Assembly: GCF_000687555.1 (NCBI RefSeq)
Contig: NZ_JHWJ01000003.1
Span: 248,001 to 312,000 of the forward strand
DNA length: 64,000 nt
Direction: 5' to 3'
Source: [Clostridium] aerotolerans DSM 5434
GTDB taxonomy: Bacteria; Bacillota; Clostridia; Lachnospirales; Lachnospiraceae
The notes below the pieces were generated by a model that was not told the origin of the DNA, searched no databases, and worked only from the letters and a program-made list of their open reading frames with translations. Position 1 is the first letter of the stretch. Each line of letters starts with the position of its first letter. This document shows, one piece after another, positions 3,034 through 52,845 of this stretch. The translations under genes were made by a program, and so were the position numbers.

Positions 3034-3759
3034 ATGAAAGAATATAGAAGATACTGGATCATCGCAGCCATGATAGGAGTTGCATTCCTTTTGATTGCCG
3101 CTTTTACCACAGCAAACTGGTATCATAGCAAAAGCAAAGCAGCAGACCAAAGCGCCATGACAAATGGCGTCCATGATTCATCGACAGCCCTATCCAATAA
3201 AAACCTGGACAATGTTTCCGCCGAGGATGCCGTAAACCGCTATCTCACCAGAGAACAAGAGCTTACAACAAATTTATTAAAGGAGCTTAAGCCTATGGAA
3301 GCCTCAGGAAATGGTTCCCTGGATTATGTAAAAGCAATGATTTCATTAAATGAAGCAACCACCCTCCTTTCAGAGTCCTATAAAACCTTTGGCGGTAATG
3401 ATGAAACATTTAAGCTCCTATCCCAGCAAACAGAAAAAAAGCTCCCGGCAGAAAATGAAACCATGAAGGAATTAATGGATAAATACGCCAGGGAAGAGCA
3501 CAAGAATGAGGATATGGAAAATGCTTATCTCACCGATTTCAATGCACTGGTGGCTGAATTTGAAAAAGCAGGAAAAACGGACTCTTCCAGCTTGGAACAT
3601 GCCTTTTCTCAGACCCTTATTCAGTATGATCAGTTAGCCGTAAATCTGTCCACCTCAATACTCGAATATACCGATTATAATGAAATCGTTACCATGGCTC
3701 AGAAAATTATAAACGATAGAAAACCCCAAATAGAGGAATTAAAAAAATTGACGCAATAG
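3034..3759 (+). CDS. Membrane-anchored protein with degenerate DUF305-like repeats
   Basis: A 241-residue protein with an N-terminal membrane anchor (about residues 8-26), a Ser/Asn-rich linker to about 60, then an all-alpha region. Two segments, about 97-150 and 188-240, resemble DUF305 (ferritin-like helical) units: AMISLNEATTLLSE and TLIQYDQLAVNLSTS align by eye with the DUF305 core MIPHHxxAxxMA, and the end AQKIINDRKPQIEELKKL resembles the family's closing helix. The His pair of DUF305 is absent from both copies, so metal binding is unlikely. AAGGGAG precedes the ATG. It is transcribed toward the fru operon and stops at a shared bidirectional terminator. Function is unknown; the family assignment is by pattern only. 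Confidence 0.5.
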   Translation: MKEYRRYWIIAAMIGVAFLLIAAFTTANWYHSKSKAADQSAMTNGVHDSSTALSNKNLDNVSAEDAVNRYLTREQELTTNLLKELKPMEASGNGSLDYVKAMISLNEATTLLSESYKTFGGNDETFKLLSQQTEKKLPAENETMKELMDKYAREEHKNEDMENAYLTDFNALVAEFEKAGKTDSSSLEHAFSQTLIQYDQLAVNLSTSILEYTDYNEIVTMAQKIINDRKPQIEELKKLTQ

Positions 3760-6948: not shown

Positions 6949-7814
6949 CTATTTTTTATCGTCTGATATGGCAATCTCATGACGTCTGATGTGGTCATGA
7001 GAATCTTTTATGCTCACTGACAGGAATAAATACAAAATCTCCATCACCGTAGTTGCCGAAACTCTGGAAAAACAGAATTCGCCCAGCAAAAGCTTCTCTC
7101 TGGTGGCCGTCGTAATATGATACTGGCAGGCCTGGCCCAAAGGTGATGACGGATTGTTCGTAATCGCAATGATTGGCGTATGATTCTCCTTTGCCACCGC
7201 GGCAAGGGTCATAAGACGCTTGGAAAAACCGGAATTGGAGATGATGATCACCGCATCCTCTTTCGTTAAATTACAGGTAAAAGCCATCTGAGTCTCCCAG
7301 ATGGTGCCGGATACTGCCCGGATACTGCCCGGATACCAAGCTGGTTAAACTTAAAAGATCCGTCCATGGCTACGGGTATGGTATTGCCTACCGCAACCAA
7401 CTGAACTGTTCTTGCATGTTCGATGATCTTTAAAATCTTATCAAGCTCCTCTGTATCCATCATGGTTATGGTCTGAGTCAGCTCTGCCACCTTATTTGCC
7501 AATATATTCTGTAGAGACTGAGAAAGATTCTCTCTGTTTATATCATTGGATACATGGGTGGAATTCCCTCTCTCCTCAGCAATTTCTTTTGCAAGATTGA
7601 TTTTTAAATGGTGAAAGCCGTTAAAACCACATCTTCTGCAGAATCTGGATACGGTCGCATCGCTGGTTCCGCTTGCCAGAGCCAGTTCTGCTACCGTCAT
7701 ATCGATCATTTCACTTTTATGAGCCAGAATATAGTCTGCTATCTTTTTCTCCGCTTCAAAAAAGGAATCATAAGACGAACAGAGTACTCCTGACACGCTG
7801 ATATTTTCCTGCAT
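6949..7814 (-). pseudogene. RpiR-family transcriptional regulator, broken by an 11-bp tandem duplication
   Basis: The N-terminal part carries the RpiR helix-turn-helix (TVAELALASGTSDATVSRFCRRCGF). The C-terminal part carries the SIS sugar-phosphate-binding domain (VIIISNSGFSKRL). They lie in different frames. The unit GGATACTGCCC occurs twice in tandem at 7309-7330, and the first frame ends at 7266 after a nonsense tail. Removing one copy joins the frames through NQLGIRAVSGTIWETQMAF, giving about 284 residues, the normal RpiR length. I used the ATG at 7814, after GAGGCGGG, rather than the one at 7832. Its position beside fruKA points to fructose-phosphate-responsive control. The break could be a real mutation, a reversible slippage state, or a sequence error. 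Confidence 0.85.
7309..7330. repeat. 11-bp tandem duplication inside the RpiR gene
   Basis: Two perfect adjacent copies of GGATACTGCCC (7309-7319 and 7320-7330), followed by a partial third copy GGATACC. The extra 11 bases shift the reading frame by two. One copy restores a full SIS domain. Confidence 0.95.
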
Positions 7815-26396: not shown

Positions 26397-26454
26397 AATG
26401 TGCTCCTTTCTTTACTTACCCTCTATGTTTATGCTCTCGTAAAGGAAACAAGAA

Positions 26455-26588
26455 AGAGTCTGACTTGTCAGACTCTGGCACTGACGCGCTGTCACTTTAG
26501 TGACATCTTCCTCTTAAGCGTCATGTGCATCCTGCATGGAATGCTTTTTATTATATAGGGGGTGTAGACCCCCCCTATATAATAAAAA
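26455..26588. repeat. Dispersed palindromic intergenic repeat, copy A
   Basis: 134 bases holding three hairpins. Hairpin 1: AGAGTCTGAC (26455-26464) with GTCAGACTCT (26467-26476). Hairpin 2: TGACGC (26482-26487) with GCGTCA (26518-26523), enclosing GTCACT/AGTGAC (26491-26504). Hairpin 3: a perfect 18-bp stem (26545-26562 with 26571-26588) whose outer ends are T- and A-runs. Copy B at 41622-41754 has the same order and similar length. The right A-run is shared with the adjacent terminator. It carries no reading frame, so it resembles a REP- or MITE-like element. Confidence 0.85.
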
Positions 26589-26628
26589 AGACCTTTATTG
26601 ACACCTTTACGGTATCAATAAAAGTCTT
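26584..26628 (-). terminator. Terminator of the zinc-ribbon protein gene
   Basis: An 18-bp stem (26588-26605 with 26611-26628) with two G-U pairs and a 5-base loop. The U-tract on the minus strand is the A-run that also ends repeat copy A. Confidence 0.85.
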
Positions 26629-26782: not shown

Positions 26783-27877
26783 TCAGGTTTCCCCATGTTC
26801 TGTGGAAAGCAGGGAGTTATAGGATACCGTTACCTGAAGAGTGTCATCTTCTTCATATACATACAAGGAGAAAATTCCATCGGTAAAAATAGTTTCCTCT
26901 CCCTGTTCCAGCCCTCCCCTGACCTGCTCCATAATGACTGGAACACTGCTCTCCTCCAAAGGAATCTGAGCTGCTGTTTCTGTTGTCTTTAAAAACTGCT
27001 CCAGATAGGCCAAGGATGCTTCTTTATCTTTTATGGAAGAGATATAATCATGCATCTCTCCGGTGGCAGTGTCATAGTTGATCTCCACATACTGGTATAC
27101 ATATCCCTCATCCTCTGAAGTCAGCTTACTGGTCACTTCATCCTCCAGATAATAGCCTTCCACGGTATCATAATAAGATATGGATCCGGAATCTGTTTTC
27201 ATCTCATAATTATCCGAATAAACTGCCTGGGGTTTTAAGAGAAACCCATAGGAATTTGCATTTATATACTGACCCATGGAATCCATGATCTCTTTTCCAG
27301 ACACCGGAAAATGATTGTAACCATTGCAGGGGATTCCGGCTGCCTTTACATCCTCTTCCTTTAAGTCCTTAAAGCCGGAATCGTCAAATGGATATGATAC
27401 TTCATAATCATTTGACTTATCCAGAAACCGGTCCGCTTTTTTTGCAATATCAGGCAGAGAACCAGCTATGATAAAAAGGAAGGTAATAATTCCTGCTATG
27501 GAAACAGGAAATCTCCTGCCCACTTTTTTCTGGGGCGGTACTGAGGAGCCTGACGGTATGTAATCTCTGGGCGGCTGAGCGTCCACAGGAGGCGGTGTCG
27601 CTGTACGTGGTGGTATCATAGTTCTTGCTGGCTGTATGGTCTTAGCTGGCTGAGCTGACCCTGTCCTGGCCGGCTGAGAAGAGCCTGGGTGCTTAGGCTG
27701 CACAGCAGTTCCATTTGACGAAGAGCCGATTGATGCAATTTCCTTTGCAGGCGGCTTTTCATTTAAATAGTAATTCATTTCCCATATGACGGGACGGCGA
27801 ACAATCTTTTTACATCGGACACAGAAATTAGCCTCATTGACCGGAAGATCACAAACCGGGCATATCTTTCTTTTCAC
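26783..27877 (-). CDS. Zinc-ribbon membrane protein with a Pro-rich linker
   Basis: A 364-residue protein. Residues 6-23 form a zinc ribbon (Cys at about 6, 9, 20 and 23), followed by a Pro/Ala/Ser-rich low-complexity segment (about 45-115), one membrane helix (about 122-144), and an extracellular C-terminal half rich in Asp, Glu and Tyr with no domain I recognise. I chose the GTG at 27877, after GGGGGGAG; a TTG 21 bases upstream overlaps the previous gene. It sits behind a 108-residue protein and ftsZ. Function unknown; location behind ftsZ may hint at envelope work, but that is weak. Confidence 0.75.
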   Translation of the reverse strand: MKRKICPVCDLPVNEANFCVRCKKIVRRPVIWEMNYYLNEKPPAKEIASIGSSSNGTAVQPKHPGSSQPARTGSAQPAKTIQPARTMIPPRTATPPPVDAQPPRDYIPSGSSVPPQKKVGRRFPVSIAGIITFLFIIAGSLPDIAKKADRFLDKSNDYEVSYPFDDSGFKDLKEEDVKAAGIPCNGYNHFPVSGKEIMDSMGQYINANSYGFLLKPQAVYSDNYEMKTDSGSISYYDTVEGYYLEDEVTSKLTSEDEGYVYQYVEINYDTATGEMHDYISSIKDKEASLAYLEQFLKTTETAAQIPLEESSVPVIMEQVRGGLEQGEETIFTDGIFSLYVYEEDDTLQVTVSYNSLLSTEHGET

Positions 27878-27890
27878 TTTTGTCTCCCCC

Positions 27891-28217
27891 CTATCCAAGT
27901 ACCAGATGGGCCACAGCTATTTCATCATCTTCGTGGAAACCCTGGGCACAAACCTGGATATTATATACATATGTTTCCTCCAGGCCGGTAAGTGCAGATA
28001 TTTCTTTTATATTTTTCCCTTCACCAGCCAATGCCAGTACCTGATGAACGTCCTCAATGGTCTTTTTTAATAACTCATCAGAAGGACTGGGAGTCATAAG
28101 CTCTCCATGATCAAGATCTGATTCCAGAATAAAATCCTCCAGAGACATCTTTTTATCCTTCTCCTGACTGTCATAATAGTCCTCAGAAATTTCCCAATCA
28201 TTTAATTTATCAGACAT
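27891..28217 (-). CDS. Uncharacterised protein with a helix-turn-helix-like segment
   Basis: A 108-residue acidic protein. The segment GEGKNIKEISALTGLEETYVYNI (residues about 64-86), here named by its ends GEGKNIKEIS and EETYVYNI, resembles a helix-turn-helix of the RNA polymerase sigma or resolvase type. The N-terminal 45 residues are Asp/Glu/Ser-rich. ATG 28217 follows AAGGAG. It lies between ftsZ and the zinc-ribbon gene, with an 11-bp hairpin between it and ftsZ. No known family recognised. Confidence 0.7.
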   Translation of the reverse strand: MSDKLNDWEISEDYYDSQEKDKKMSLEDFILESDLDHGELMTPSPSDELLKKTIEDVHQVLALAGEGKNIKEISALTGLEETYVYNIQVCAQGFHEDDEIAVAHLVLG

Positions 28218-41446: not shown

Positions 41447-41621
41447 GGAGATTTTTGATTATTTTTCATTGATTTCGGTTACAAAGGGGCGGAAATACAA
41501 GCTTTACCATTTTTTCCCAAAATTTGACATGGCTTTTCCATACCACTCTCTTTATCAGAGTTTCTTCATATTATAATGAACATTCTCCTCTAAAATATCA
41601 TGGTAATTATTTGCATAATAA

Positions 41622-41754
41622 AGAGTCTGGCTCGCCAGACTCTAGCGCTGACGCGCTGGCACGTTAGTGACAATCTACATTTAGAGCGTCATGTGCATCC
41701 CGCCCGGCAGGTTTTTTTGTGTAATAGGGCGTAATTTCCTGTTACACAAAAAAA
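41622..41754. repeat. Dispersed palindromic intergenic repeat, copy B
   Basis: 133 bases with the same plan as copy A. Hairpin 1 is AGAGTCTGGC (41622-41631) with GCCAGACTCT (41634-41643). Hairpin 2 has TGACGC (41649-41654) with GCGTCA (41686-41691). GTCATGTGCATCC is shared with copy A. Hairpin 3 has T7-GTGTAA (41712-41724) with TTACAC-A7 (41742-41754). The A-run overlaps the U-tract of the terminator behind the Spo0E-like gene. Relative to copy A, an A-T pair in hairpin 1 is G-C here. Confidence 0.88.
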
Positions 41755-41782
41755 GTGGGAAGGCATCTGGCCTTCCCACTTT
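41752..41782 (-). terminator. Terminator of the lgt-spo0E-like operon
   Basis: A perfect 13-bp stem AAAGTGGGAAGGC (41752-41764) with GCCTTCCCACTTT (41770-41782) and a 5-base loop. The following U-tract on the minus strand is the A-run of repeat copy B. Confidence 0.9.
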
Positions 41783-41791
41783 CATATAAAA

Positions 41792-41944
41792 TTAATAACC
41801 CGCTTCTATATATTGCTCAATTAATTTATCCAGTTCTACACTCCTAAGATAAATAACATCTCCATCATCATGATCAATACTTTTATTCAGTCTTTCCCTA
41901 GCTTCTTCAATATTACGGATTAACTCTTCTTTTGAAATCATCAT
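41792..41944 (-). CDS. Spo0E-like aspartyl-phosphate phosphatase, 50 residues
   Basis: A 50-residue protein with the pattern of small Spo0E-family phosphatases: a first helix, then SIDHDDGDVIYLRSVELDKL (residues about 22-41), close to the family's SxELDxLIxxY. The family removes phosphate from Spo0A and delays sporulation. AAGGAG precedes the ATG by 9 bases. The start is one base from the lgt stop, so it is translationally coupled to lgt and ends at the 41.75-kb terminator. The second codon is also ATG. The call rests on the short motif. Confidence 0.75.
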   Translation of the reverse strand: MMISKEELIRNIEEARERLNKSIDHDDGDVIYLRSVELDKLIEQYIEAGY

Positions 41945-52452: not shown

Positions 52453-52520
52453 ATCATGCATATCCTGCCCGGCAGAGCTTTTTTATGTAGCAGGGCGTAA
52501 TTCTAGAATACGTAAAAAAA
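52453..52520. repeat. Dispersed palindromic intergenic repeat, copy C (diverged right half)
   Basis: 68 bases match the right half of copies A and B: ATCATGCATATCCTGCCC, then GGCAG, a T-run, AGGGCGTAATT, and a closing A-run (52514-52520). The last hairpin is less regular; it includes the palindrome ATTCTAGAAT. Hairpins 1 and 2 of A and B are absent; other palindromes occupy their place. The A-run again touches a terminator. Confidence 0.75.
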
Positions 52521-52578: not shown

Positions 52579-52845
52579 TTACATCTCGCCAAGGCCGCTT
52601 TCAATTGCCTCAGTCATAGTCTGCATAGCTGCTGCTTCATCTTCGCCATCACAGATTAAAGTGATTTCAGCACCACTTTTAATTCCTGCTGCCATAACGT
52701 TTAATACGCTCTTTGCAACAATTCTCTTCTCGCCATACTCAACAATTATATCAGATTTAAACTTCATAGCTGTCTGAGACAGAACTCCTGCTGGTCTTAA
52801 GTGAAGTCCGGATGGATTTATTACAGTCAGTGTTTTAGATAACAT
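52579..52845 (-). CDS. HPr family phosphocarrier protein
   Basis: An 88-residue HPr. The active-site His15 is in PSGLHLRPA, one residue different from the usual HARPA. Ser46, target of HPr kinase, is present in AKSVLNVM by counting from the start. It passes phosphate from enzyme I to enzymes II such as FruA at 3.9 kb. No enzyme I (ptsI) lies next to it. It has its own promoter and terminator, so it is a single-gene unit. Confidence 0.93.
   Translation of the reverse strand: MLSKTLTVINPSGLHLRPAGVLSQTAMKFKSDIIVEYGEKRIVAKSVLNVMAAGIKSGAEITLICDGEDEAAAMQTMTEAIESGLGEM

Follow-up and report, generated by a model that had tools for sequence, protein, structure and literature searches.

MITEs are defined by terminal inverted repeats and target-site duplication, and REP systems are expected to have a partner transposase. 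Palindrome-associated transposable elements (PATEs) are of the IS200/IS605 kind (PMC3119063), and in IS200/IS605 elements the guides lie 5' of the palindrome (PMC5934647, PMC8266576), as the consulted passages of these sources describe. In the solved group IIC intron complex, a DNA stem-loop is bound and EBS1 AAAG is set against target CTTT (PMC10190682), and mobile attenuators are treated in a further source consulted in part (PMC2965389). Here we analyzed a repeat found in three intergenic places of a 64-kb stretch of DNA (the window), which a sequence-only reading had likened to a mobile element preferring terminators. In the portions of the literature that were searched, no description of this repeat was found.

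Results

Copies and boundaries

Copies A and B aligned over their full length (26455..26588 and 41622..41754), and copy C had only the terminator-side half in common with them, as the sequence-only reading had it. All three share one orientation, each behind a minus-strand gene, and contain no gene, the open frames that cross them being 63 aa or less. The gene preceding A (26783..27898, minus strand), earlier called a zinc-ribbon gene, encodes a 371-aa protein that bears a pair of CxxC motifs close to its N terminus and has no Pfam hit. The Spo0E-like gene ahead of B (41792..41944, minus strand; PF09388, E = 3.1e-5) and the HPr gene ahead of C (52579..52845, minus strand; PF00381, E = 1.3e-28) had been named correctly.

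The repeat unit as first drawn was corrected: the T-run/A-run beside the terminator was reassigned to the target and now lies outside the repeat, because empty sites already carry this U-tract. The element proper spans ~131-134 bp, on the minus strand, and is read below 5' to 3' from the terminator side, with left and right used in that sense. Copy A is a full element of 134 bp (26449..26582) and copy B one of 131 bp (41616..41746), while C is a terminator-side fragment (about 52453..52512) that matches the model weakly (E = 0.6); the boundaries of B come from its own empty site in relatives, and those of A and C from analogy with filled/empty pairs. All further features of the three sites are likewise on the minus strand. 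At A the target bases are the U-tract TTTTTTA of the upstream gene's terminator (26583..26589), which pairs with the element's inner arm, and the terminator hairpin serving as target (26588..26628) has an 18-pair stem followed by a T-run. The target bases at B, TTTTTTTG (41747..41754), pre-date the insertion in relatives (empty site ...CCCACTTTTTTTGTGCAAATAATTACC), and the terminator hairpin there (41751..41783) has a 14-pair stem. At C the target U-tract is TTTTTTTA (52513..52520). Right-end hairpins, themselves terminator-like, lie at 26455..26476 in A and 41622..41643 in B. The left hairpin of B (41712..41754) draws its outer arm partly from the target (T7G), and its inner arm CACAAAAAAA is within the element.

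BLASTN with A, B and C as queries revealed seven near-full and at least six partial copies in the own genome (G000; G, C and L followed by a number denote genomes, contigs and loci). The own genome is that of a Lacrimispora-type member of the Lachnospiraceae, the genus being judged from named relatives. The near-full copies are at C3:274450 (A), C3:289618 (B), C4:56267, C19:61426, C5:304012, C2:11689 and C8:122865, and the partial ones (E below 1e-4) at C21:23408, C11:17558, C8:53731, C3:300453 (copy C), C1:520582 and C5:221694. Query A matched the C19 copy at 91% (E = 3.5e-48) and B at 78% (E = 3.7e-19), query B matched a fourth copy at 92% (E = 8.2e-52), and query C one more partial copy at 79% (E = 4.4e-8). 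In body sequence A is close to the C19 copy (94%) and B to the C4 copy (95%), the remaining pairs of own-genome copies sharing 65-80%.

Distribution

A covariance model of 99 positions (R1), running from the A-run to the right end, was used for wider searches. It was restricted to this right part because the first consensus fold on the MAFFT alignment had misplaced the left arms; since the T-run and the outer part of the left hairpin are excluded from it, the upstream target features reported below are independent observations that were not selected for. R1 recovered the same seven near-full copies in the own genome (E = 8.5e-20 to 7.2e-12) and matched 12 of 25 genomes of the genus at E ≤ 0.01, some of these carriers through a single weak match. 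At the same threshold G001 had 26 copies, G009 20, G023 11, G022 10 and the own genome nine. Across the wider family, matches at E ≤ 1e-7 occurred in at least 33 of 397 sampled genomes, representing at least 28 of 334 genera with the own genus included; these counts are lower bounds, as the scan used stricter filters and scored ten candidates per genome. Among named genomes, a pattern scan yielded 66 stretches; they came from Lacrimispora, Anaerocolumna, a Hungatella MAG, strains labeled Clostridium sp. and unclassified MAGs.

Copy B had no relative in plasmid and phage collections at the sensitivity used, and the sole viral contig match lies, by eye, among chromosomal-looking frames, so that carriage of copy B by plasmids or phages was not retained. 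The window was without an Rfam match at gathering score, in agreement with the earlier remark that it was not recognized as a described family: 29 matches at copy B all fell under their thresholds, with no intron RNA with domain V near its own, and on 17 loci only the neighboring T-box and FMN leaders passed. BLASTN and the covariance model together thus yielded more than a handful of copies, linked to terminators and outside any Rfam family.

Mobility and insertion junctions

The repeat is a dispersed mobile element. Among the loci compared, eight distinct insertions have an empty counterpart in relatives (L002, L021, which is copy B, L106, L111, L126, L136, L146 and L148). They remain from 14 filled/empty comparisons after two of L028 (diverged flanks) and that of L115 with L273 (an internally deleted copy) were dropped, and repeats of counted sites (second comparisons of L002 and L021, and L160/L115) were not counted again. 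A genus-wide search around B found its site empty in relatives: the empty form reads ...CCTTCCCACTTTTTTTGTGCAAATAATTACC, and the filled one ...CCTTCCCACTTTTTTTG, then the element, then TGCAAATAATTACC; in G001 the site is also empty, with the same GTG behind the T-run. None of the eight pairs requires a target duplication, the flanks joining at equal length in L021, L111, L136 and L148 and being off by about one base in the other four. The target sequence is a T-run plus A or G, the first base of the element is T in these eight cases, and its end is mostly CTTG or CTTA in the A-like subfamily. G196, from another genus, holds four copies (L388-L391) at sites unrelated to one another, and their 96-base bodies are the same. 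L391 is an exception at the junction, which is without a T-run: a hairpin with TTTT lies upstream, and about eleven other bases precede the element.

Eight tandem arrays were found among the modeled loci, all in one orientation and with a period of 124-137 bases, and L416 holds a further two-copy array. At orthologous sites of two close relatives (L121/L139, L110/L137, L113/L131), the copies belong to different subfamilies and sometimes have only the right part in common, which may reflect replacement by conversion or repeated insertion. Other copies are incomplete: L312, L313, L315 and L316 keep the left hairpin at the terminator and have lost the right part to differing lengths, and L120, L125 and L229 are without the left hairpin and, by eye, also without a terminator T-run ahead.

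Intrinsic terminators as targets

Insertion takes place immediately 3' of an intrinsic terminator's U-tract; the terminator is on one side of the element only, and the polarity is fixed. The preference for terminators noticed in the window held across genomes: a terminator-like structure was present upstream of 114 of 173 copies compared with 43 of 865 control positions in the same loci, and a run of at least four T preceded 125 of 173 copies compared with 205 of 865 controls. The 173 copies are the 190 rows of alignments A4-A6 minus duplicates and copies with under 140 bases upstream; they include orthologous copies and are not all independent. The 59 that fail the terminator criterion include truncated copies, weak model hits and long hairpins missed by the test. 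A terminator pointing at the right end was found in eight of 166 cases, with an interval that differs from the upstream one. By a folding criterion on anchored sites, a hairpin abutted the T-run in 73 of 87 sites compared with 178 of 600 other runs of five or more T; this set descends from 136 model matches, through 130 distinct copies and 94 with an anchored hairpin, to 88 distinct upstream sequences.

Some of these terminators belong to leaders. In 17 loci picked for looking like leaders, the region upstream of the element matched Rfam T-box leaders in nine cases and FMN riboswitches in two. In the ileS leader, assigned by eye from the protein start, the element is present in G000, G001, G009, G011, G018, G022 and G023 with matched flanks (L024, L121, L139, L140, L141, L144, L154), the copies being of different subfamilies; one of the six loci given to Rfam (L140) exceeded the T-box threshold. 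An internally deleted copy lies between the FMN riboswitch and ribD in the own genome and G022 (L032 and L325). The right ends of A and B themselves score as terminators, and no promoter-like site was found around A and B. Stem letters gave no signal of reading the right flank: 378 matches were observed against 375 expected at 86 sites, and 150 of 500 shuffles were as high.

Anatomy and fold

Read in the direction of the upstream gene, the outer arm of the left hairpin consists of the target T-run and the first ~nine bases of the element (..TNNNATAGG), and the inner arm of CCTATNNNA-TAAAAAG(C), so that the inner left arm base-pairs with the target T-run. A small CCTGCCGGGCGGG hairpin follows, then a long stem GCACATGACGC/GCGTCAGTGC around GTCACTAAAGTGAC, and at the right end the hairpin GAGTCTGACAAGTCAGACTC and TTTCTTR. 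At this end no guide was recognized by eye. The left and right hairpins differ in sequence; there are palindromes near both ends and no terminal inverted repeats. The left arm pair was present in most of the 130 copies, 94 of them anchorable. On the plus strand, A and B folded far better than their shuffles (z = -7.8 and -5.7), and C no better (z = 0.1).

Covariation was weak among the seven seed copies of the own genome, with both-side changes in three pairs and a pairing percentage matched by 85 of 500 shuffles. In other genera the hairpin sequences are rewritten and the pairing is kept. Alignment A6 (44 distinct rows) showed both-side changes in 24 of 30 pairs; its covariation amounted to 171 cells against 57 ± 7 in shuffles, and 89% of its cells paired against 35-47% when slid, figures in which structure is favored, since A6 was aligned to the model, and in which the shuffles ignore relatedness. 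At the position three bases before AGG in the left hairpin, 86 of 88 sites were paired (30 expected) by four pair types; because left hairpins entered this set by virtue of their pairing, the information lies in the diversity of pair types and not in the count. If this strand were under selection as a folded RNA, G-U pairs would be expected to be favored. The mismatches in A4-A6 comprised 243 A-C and 178 G-T cells, beside 4,225 Watson-Crick cells and 399 others, the A-C excess coming partly from one stem region. Because G-T is no commoner than A-C despite the covarying stems, the base counts suggest that the stem constraint acts on a DNA-level fold.

Several hairpins bear traces of local rearrangement. 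In the left-hairpin loops of L108, L132 and L133 compared with L104, a three-base loop occurs in both orientations (TAC/GTA, TAT/ATA), a possible sign of template switching or hairpin inversion, and an arm has been perfected in place at an orthologous site (L107 compared with L127). Together, the loop inversions and the in-place perfection suggest that template switching also acts in the hairpins. At L321 (~3231-3251; G010:C14:174230), a solitary right-end hairpin stands at the center of a perfect palindrome with 30 bp per arm, which extends into the flanking bases, suggestive of an inverted copying of the flank. At L198 (~7720-7790; Anaerocolumna sp. MB42-C2), a sequence that we take to be like group II intron domain V/VI ends inside the element's left hairpin, apparently an intron inserted into the repeat.

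Search for a mobilizing enzyme and a longer version

The own genome has a single match to a Y1 transposase (L057, G000:C15:57189-57545), which lies in an IS200-like element; its ends are unrelated to those of the repeat, and it was rejected as a partner. Y1 genes occur in 20 of 25 genomes of the genus with no evident relation to copy number, including the copy-free relatives G005 and G008, and in 12 of 17 carriers (16 outside the genus plus G001), being absent from G271, G072, G106, G172 and G305. In G196, which holds the freshest copies, Y1 is broken. In 40 of 41 Y1 loci taken with up to 1.5 kb of flank, no element was found nearby (no match beyond 15 bases). At L416 an array lies ~0.8 kb from a broken Y1 gene, with a glyoxalase-like frame between them. 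The RAYT-sized loci L417 and L418, among these 41, which are part of all Y1 matches, were without element copies. This distribution lowers the claim that the repeat derives from IS200/IS605, and it does not lower that of an IS200/IS605-like way of working. A search of five genomes for the left hairpin did not bring up any longer element that carries it; its seven matches outside the model hits were truncated copies or solo hairpins. A search of eight genomes with the right hairpin gave further matches, some of which were inspected.

Discussion

Our main reading, to which we assign a probability of roughly 0.55, is that the repeat is a non-autonomous mobile DNA element of ~131-140 bp that inserts 3' of a U-tract without duplication, as a folded HUH-type single strand, the terminator mimicking its right end. 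The reading builds on the observed mobility, the terminator targeting with fixed polarity, the boundaries, the conserved hairpins and the pairing of the inner arm with the T-run. From these we infer that the mobile form may be a folded single DNA strand, moved by an enzyme of HUH type, or a similar one, provided in trans. Such an enzyme would read a hairpin, a T-rich tail and R at the right end (GAGTCTGACAAGTCAGACTC-TTTCTTR) and the same signal in the target (terminator hairpin-TTTTTR), and the terminator would be chosen since it mimics the element's own right end. We propose terminators as mimics because the right ends score as terminators and because tandem arrays run on the same strand. Arrays of one orientation are what is expected if the element's own end can be a target; their inner arms are not all matched to the flank, so tandem duplication may also occur. 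The upstream gene would retain its terminator, and insertion should therefore be nearly harmless. Against this reading stand the Y1 comparisons, which tied no enzyme to the element, and the place of the A-run 3' of the left hairpin, where IS200/IS605 guides are 5'. Further points against it are the 59 copies that fail the terminator criterion, the junction of L391, the unmatched inner arms in some arrays and the outcome of the search for a longer element in five genomes.

The A-run of the left inner arm may additionally act as a guide by pairing with the target T-run, a part of the model that is weaker than the mimicry. The T-run deviates at 15 sites; in seven of them (L225, L190 twice, L169, L126, L136 and L329, the last probably spurious) the pairing of the inner arm is better than AAAA, the standard, would give, and in the other eight it is not. 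The strongest example is L126: its T-run is interrupted in the empty relative as well, and its inner arm has a change that matches. An inner arm obligately templated by the target was rejected: eight of the 15 deviating targets are not better matched, and the identical bodies in G196 keep one inner arm beside different flanks, so that the arm is not copied from the target at insertion. A choice of target by two signals, in which the target hairpin mimics the right end and the A-run 3' of the left hairpin pairs with the T-run, through an enzyme not yet connected with such elements, is a tentative proposal that we consider rather unlikely as a whole. If true, it would parallel, in a natural element, the longer target pairing that was engineered into IS608.

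It is improbable, in our judgment, that the arms came to match only once the element had inserted, through template switching in imperfect palindromes, with the A-run no guide and the shape of the terminator alone recognized. This would account for the loop inversions, the arms perfected in place, the right hairpin enlarged to a palindrome in one relative and the identical inner arms beside different flanks in four copies; recent copies, however, already have the A-run, and its partner T-run pre-existed in the targets.

Group IIC introns have the same polarity relative to the terminator. The repeat could be pictured as an RNA-mediated (retro) element: a group IIC intron reverse transcriptase, acting in trans, would place the transcript of the repeat behind terminators, and the A-run would take the role of EBS1 on the U-tract. 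These introns are documented in the consulted part of the source as terminator-targeting elements (PMC4424553), and their EBS1 AAAG against target CTTT (PMC10190682) resembles the AAAAAG of the repeat. The window nevertheless has no Rfam intron match, G-U pairs are not favored over A-C, and the left-truncated copies L120, L125 and L229 (judged by eye) also have no target T-run, unlike aborted reverse transcripts, all of which makes this origin quite improbable. Small size, many copies, absence of genes and intergenic dispersal would suit an ordinary MITE moved by a DDE transposase with a T-run preference, but terminal inverted repeats are absent, the eight filled/empty pairs need no target duplication and T-runs with an upstream hairpin are preferred over others, and we hold this to be very unlikely. 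Hardly credible is an immobile module kept by inheritance, a regulatory RNA or double terminator serving to strengthen termination or to insulate neighboring genes, for which the covarying stems, the position behind the ileS leader terminator in seven relatives (own genome included) and the terminator look of the right end could be cited, since empty orthologous sites contradict it as sole explanation, identical copies occupy unrelated sites, A and B have no promoter-like site and there is no G-U excess.

A mobile DNA element that inserts at terminators remains our preferred reading. In the parts of the literature consulted, group IIC introns alone are said to use intrinsic terminators as landing sites, and terminator targeting by a transposase-free DNA repeat is, as far as these searches go, undescribed. 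A DNA element with this habit in at least 28 of 334 sampled family genera would represent a second, independent way of safe intergenic insertion. Where it has inserted behind T-box or riboswitch terminators, it adds a structured segment inside the ileS and ribD leaders and may thereby also alter regulation. If the self-mimicry model is true, the reading of DNA shape by a transposase becomes directly testable.

The comparison with known systems, drawn from the consulted passages of each source, separates the repeat from several of them. The earlier label of REP/MITE type holds for a dispersed mobile repeat, but as a class it is not established, the MITE hallmarks being absent and no partner transposase linked. 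REPs moved by TnpAREP are likewise palindromic and extragenic and are presumed to be mobilized in trans in single-stranded form (PMC8266576), but they consist of a single hairpin with a GTAG motif beside tnpAREP genes, whereas the repeat has several hairpins and no linked gene was found. Pneumococcus likewise has small, structured repeats dispersed in its genome, namely SPRITE, BOX and RUP; one copy of BOX is found between T-boxes, and SPRITE is similar to a terminator (PMC3049150). By the description compared, however, SPRITE is itself terminator-like and is not described there as inserting behind terminators (PMC3049150). Group IIC introns share insertion at intrinsic terminators, recognition of the stem-loop as DNA and A-rich letters on the T-run (PMC4424553, PMC10190682), but comprise a catalytic RNA and usually a reverse transcriptase, whereas the repeat measures ~135 bp and intron features were not found in it. 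In IS608 and its engineered long-target versions, as in the repeat, a transposon end base-pairs with the target strand (PMC5934647); the guide of IS608 precedes the hairpin on its 5' side, and TnpA is its dedicated transposase, whereas in the repeat the pairing lies inside one continuous stem, the pairing A-run is 3' of the left hairpin and no linked protein was found. PATEs differ in having a string of 4-6 bases as target instead of a hairpin plus T-run, and the searches for the repeat revealed no IS605-type parent with ends like its own, Y1 being absent from some carriers. Nevertheless, PATEs are short and gene-free, with palindromes near both ends and neither terminal inverted repeats nor target duplication (PMC3119063), and a short target string is kept at their left flank, as the T-run plus R is here. 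In these respects, the repeat behaves more like the palindrome-ended, duplication-free PATE kind than like a REP or MITE.
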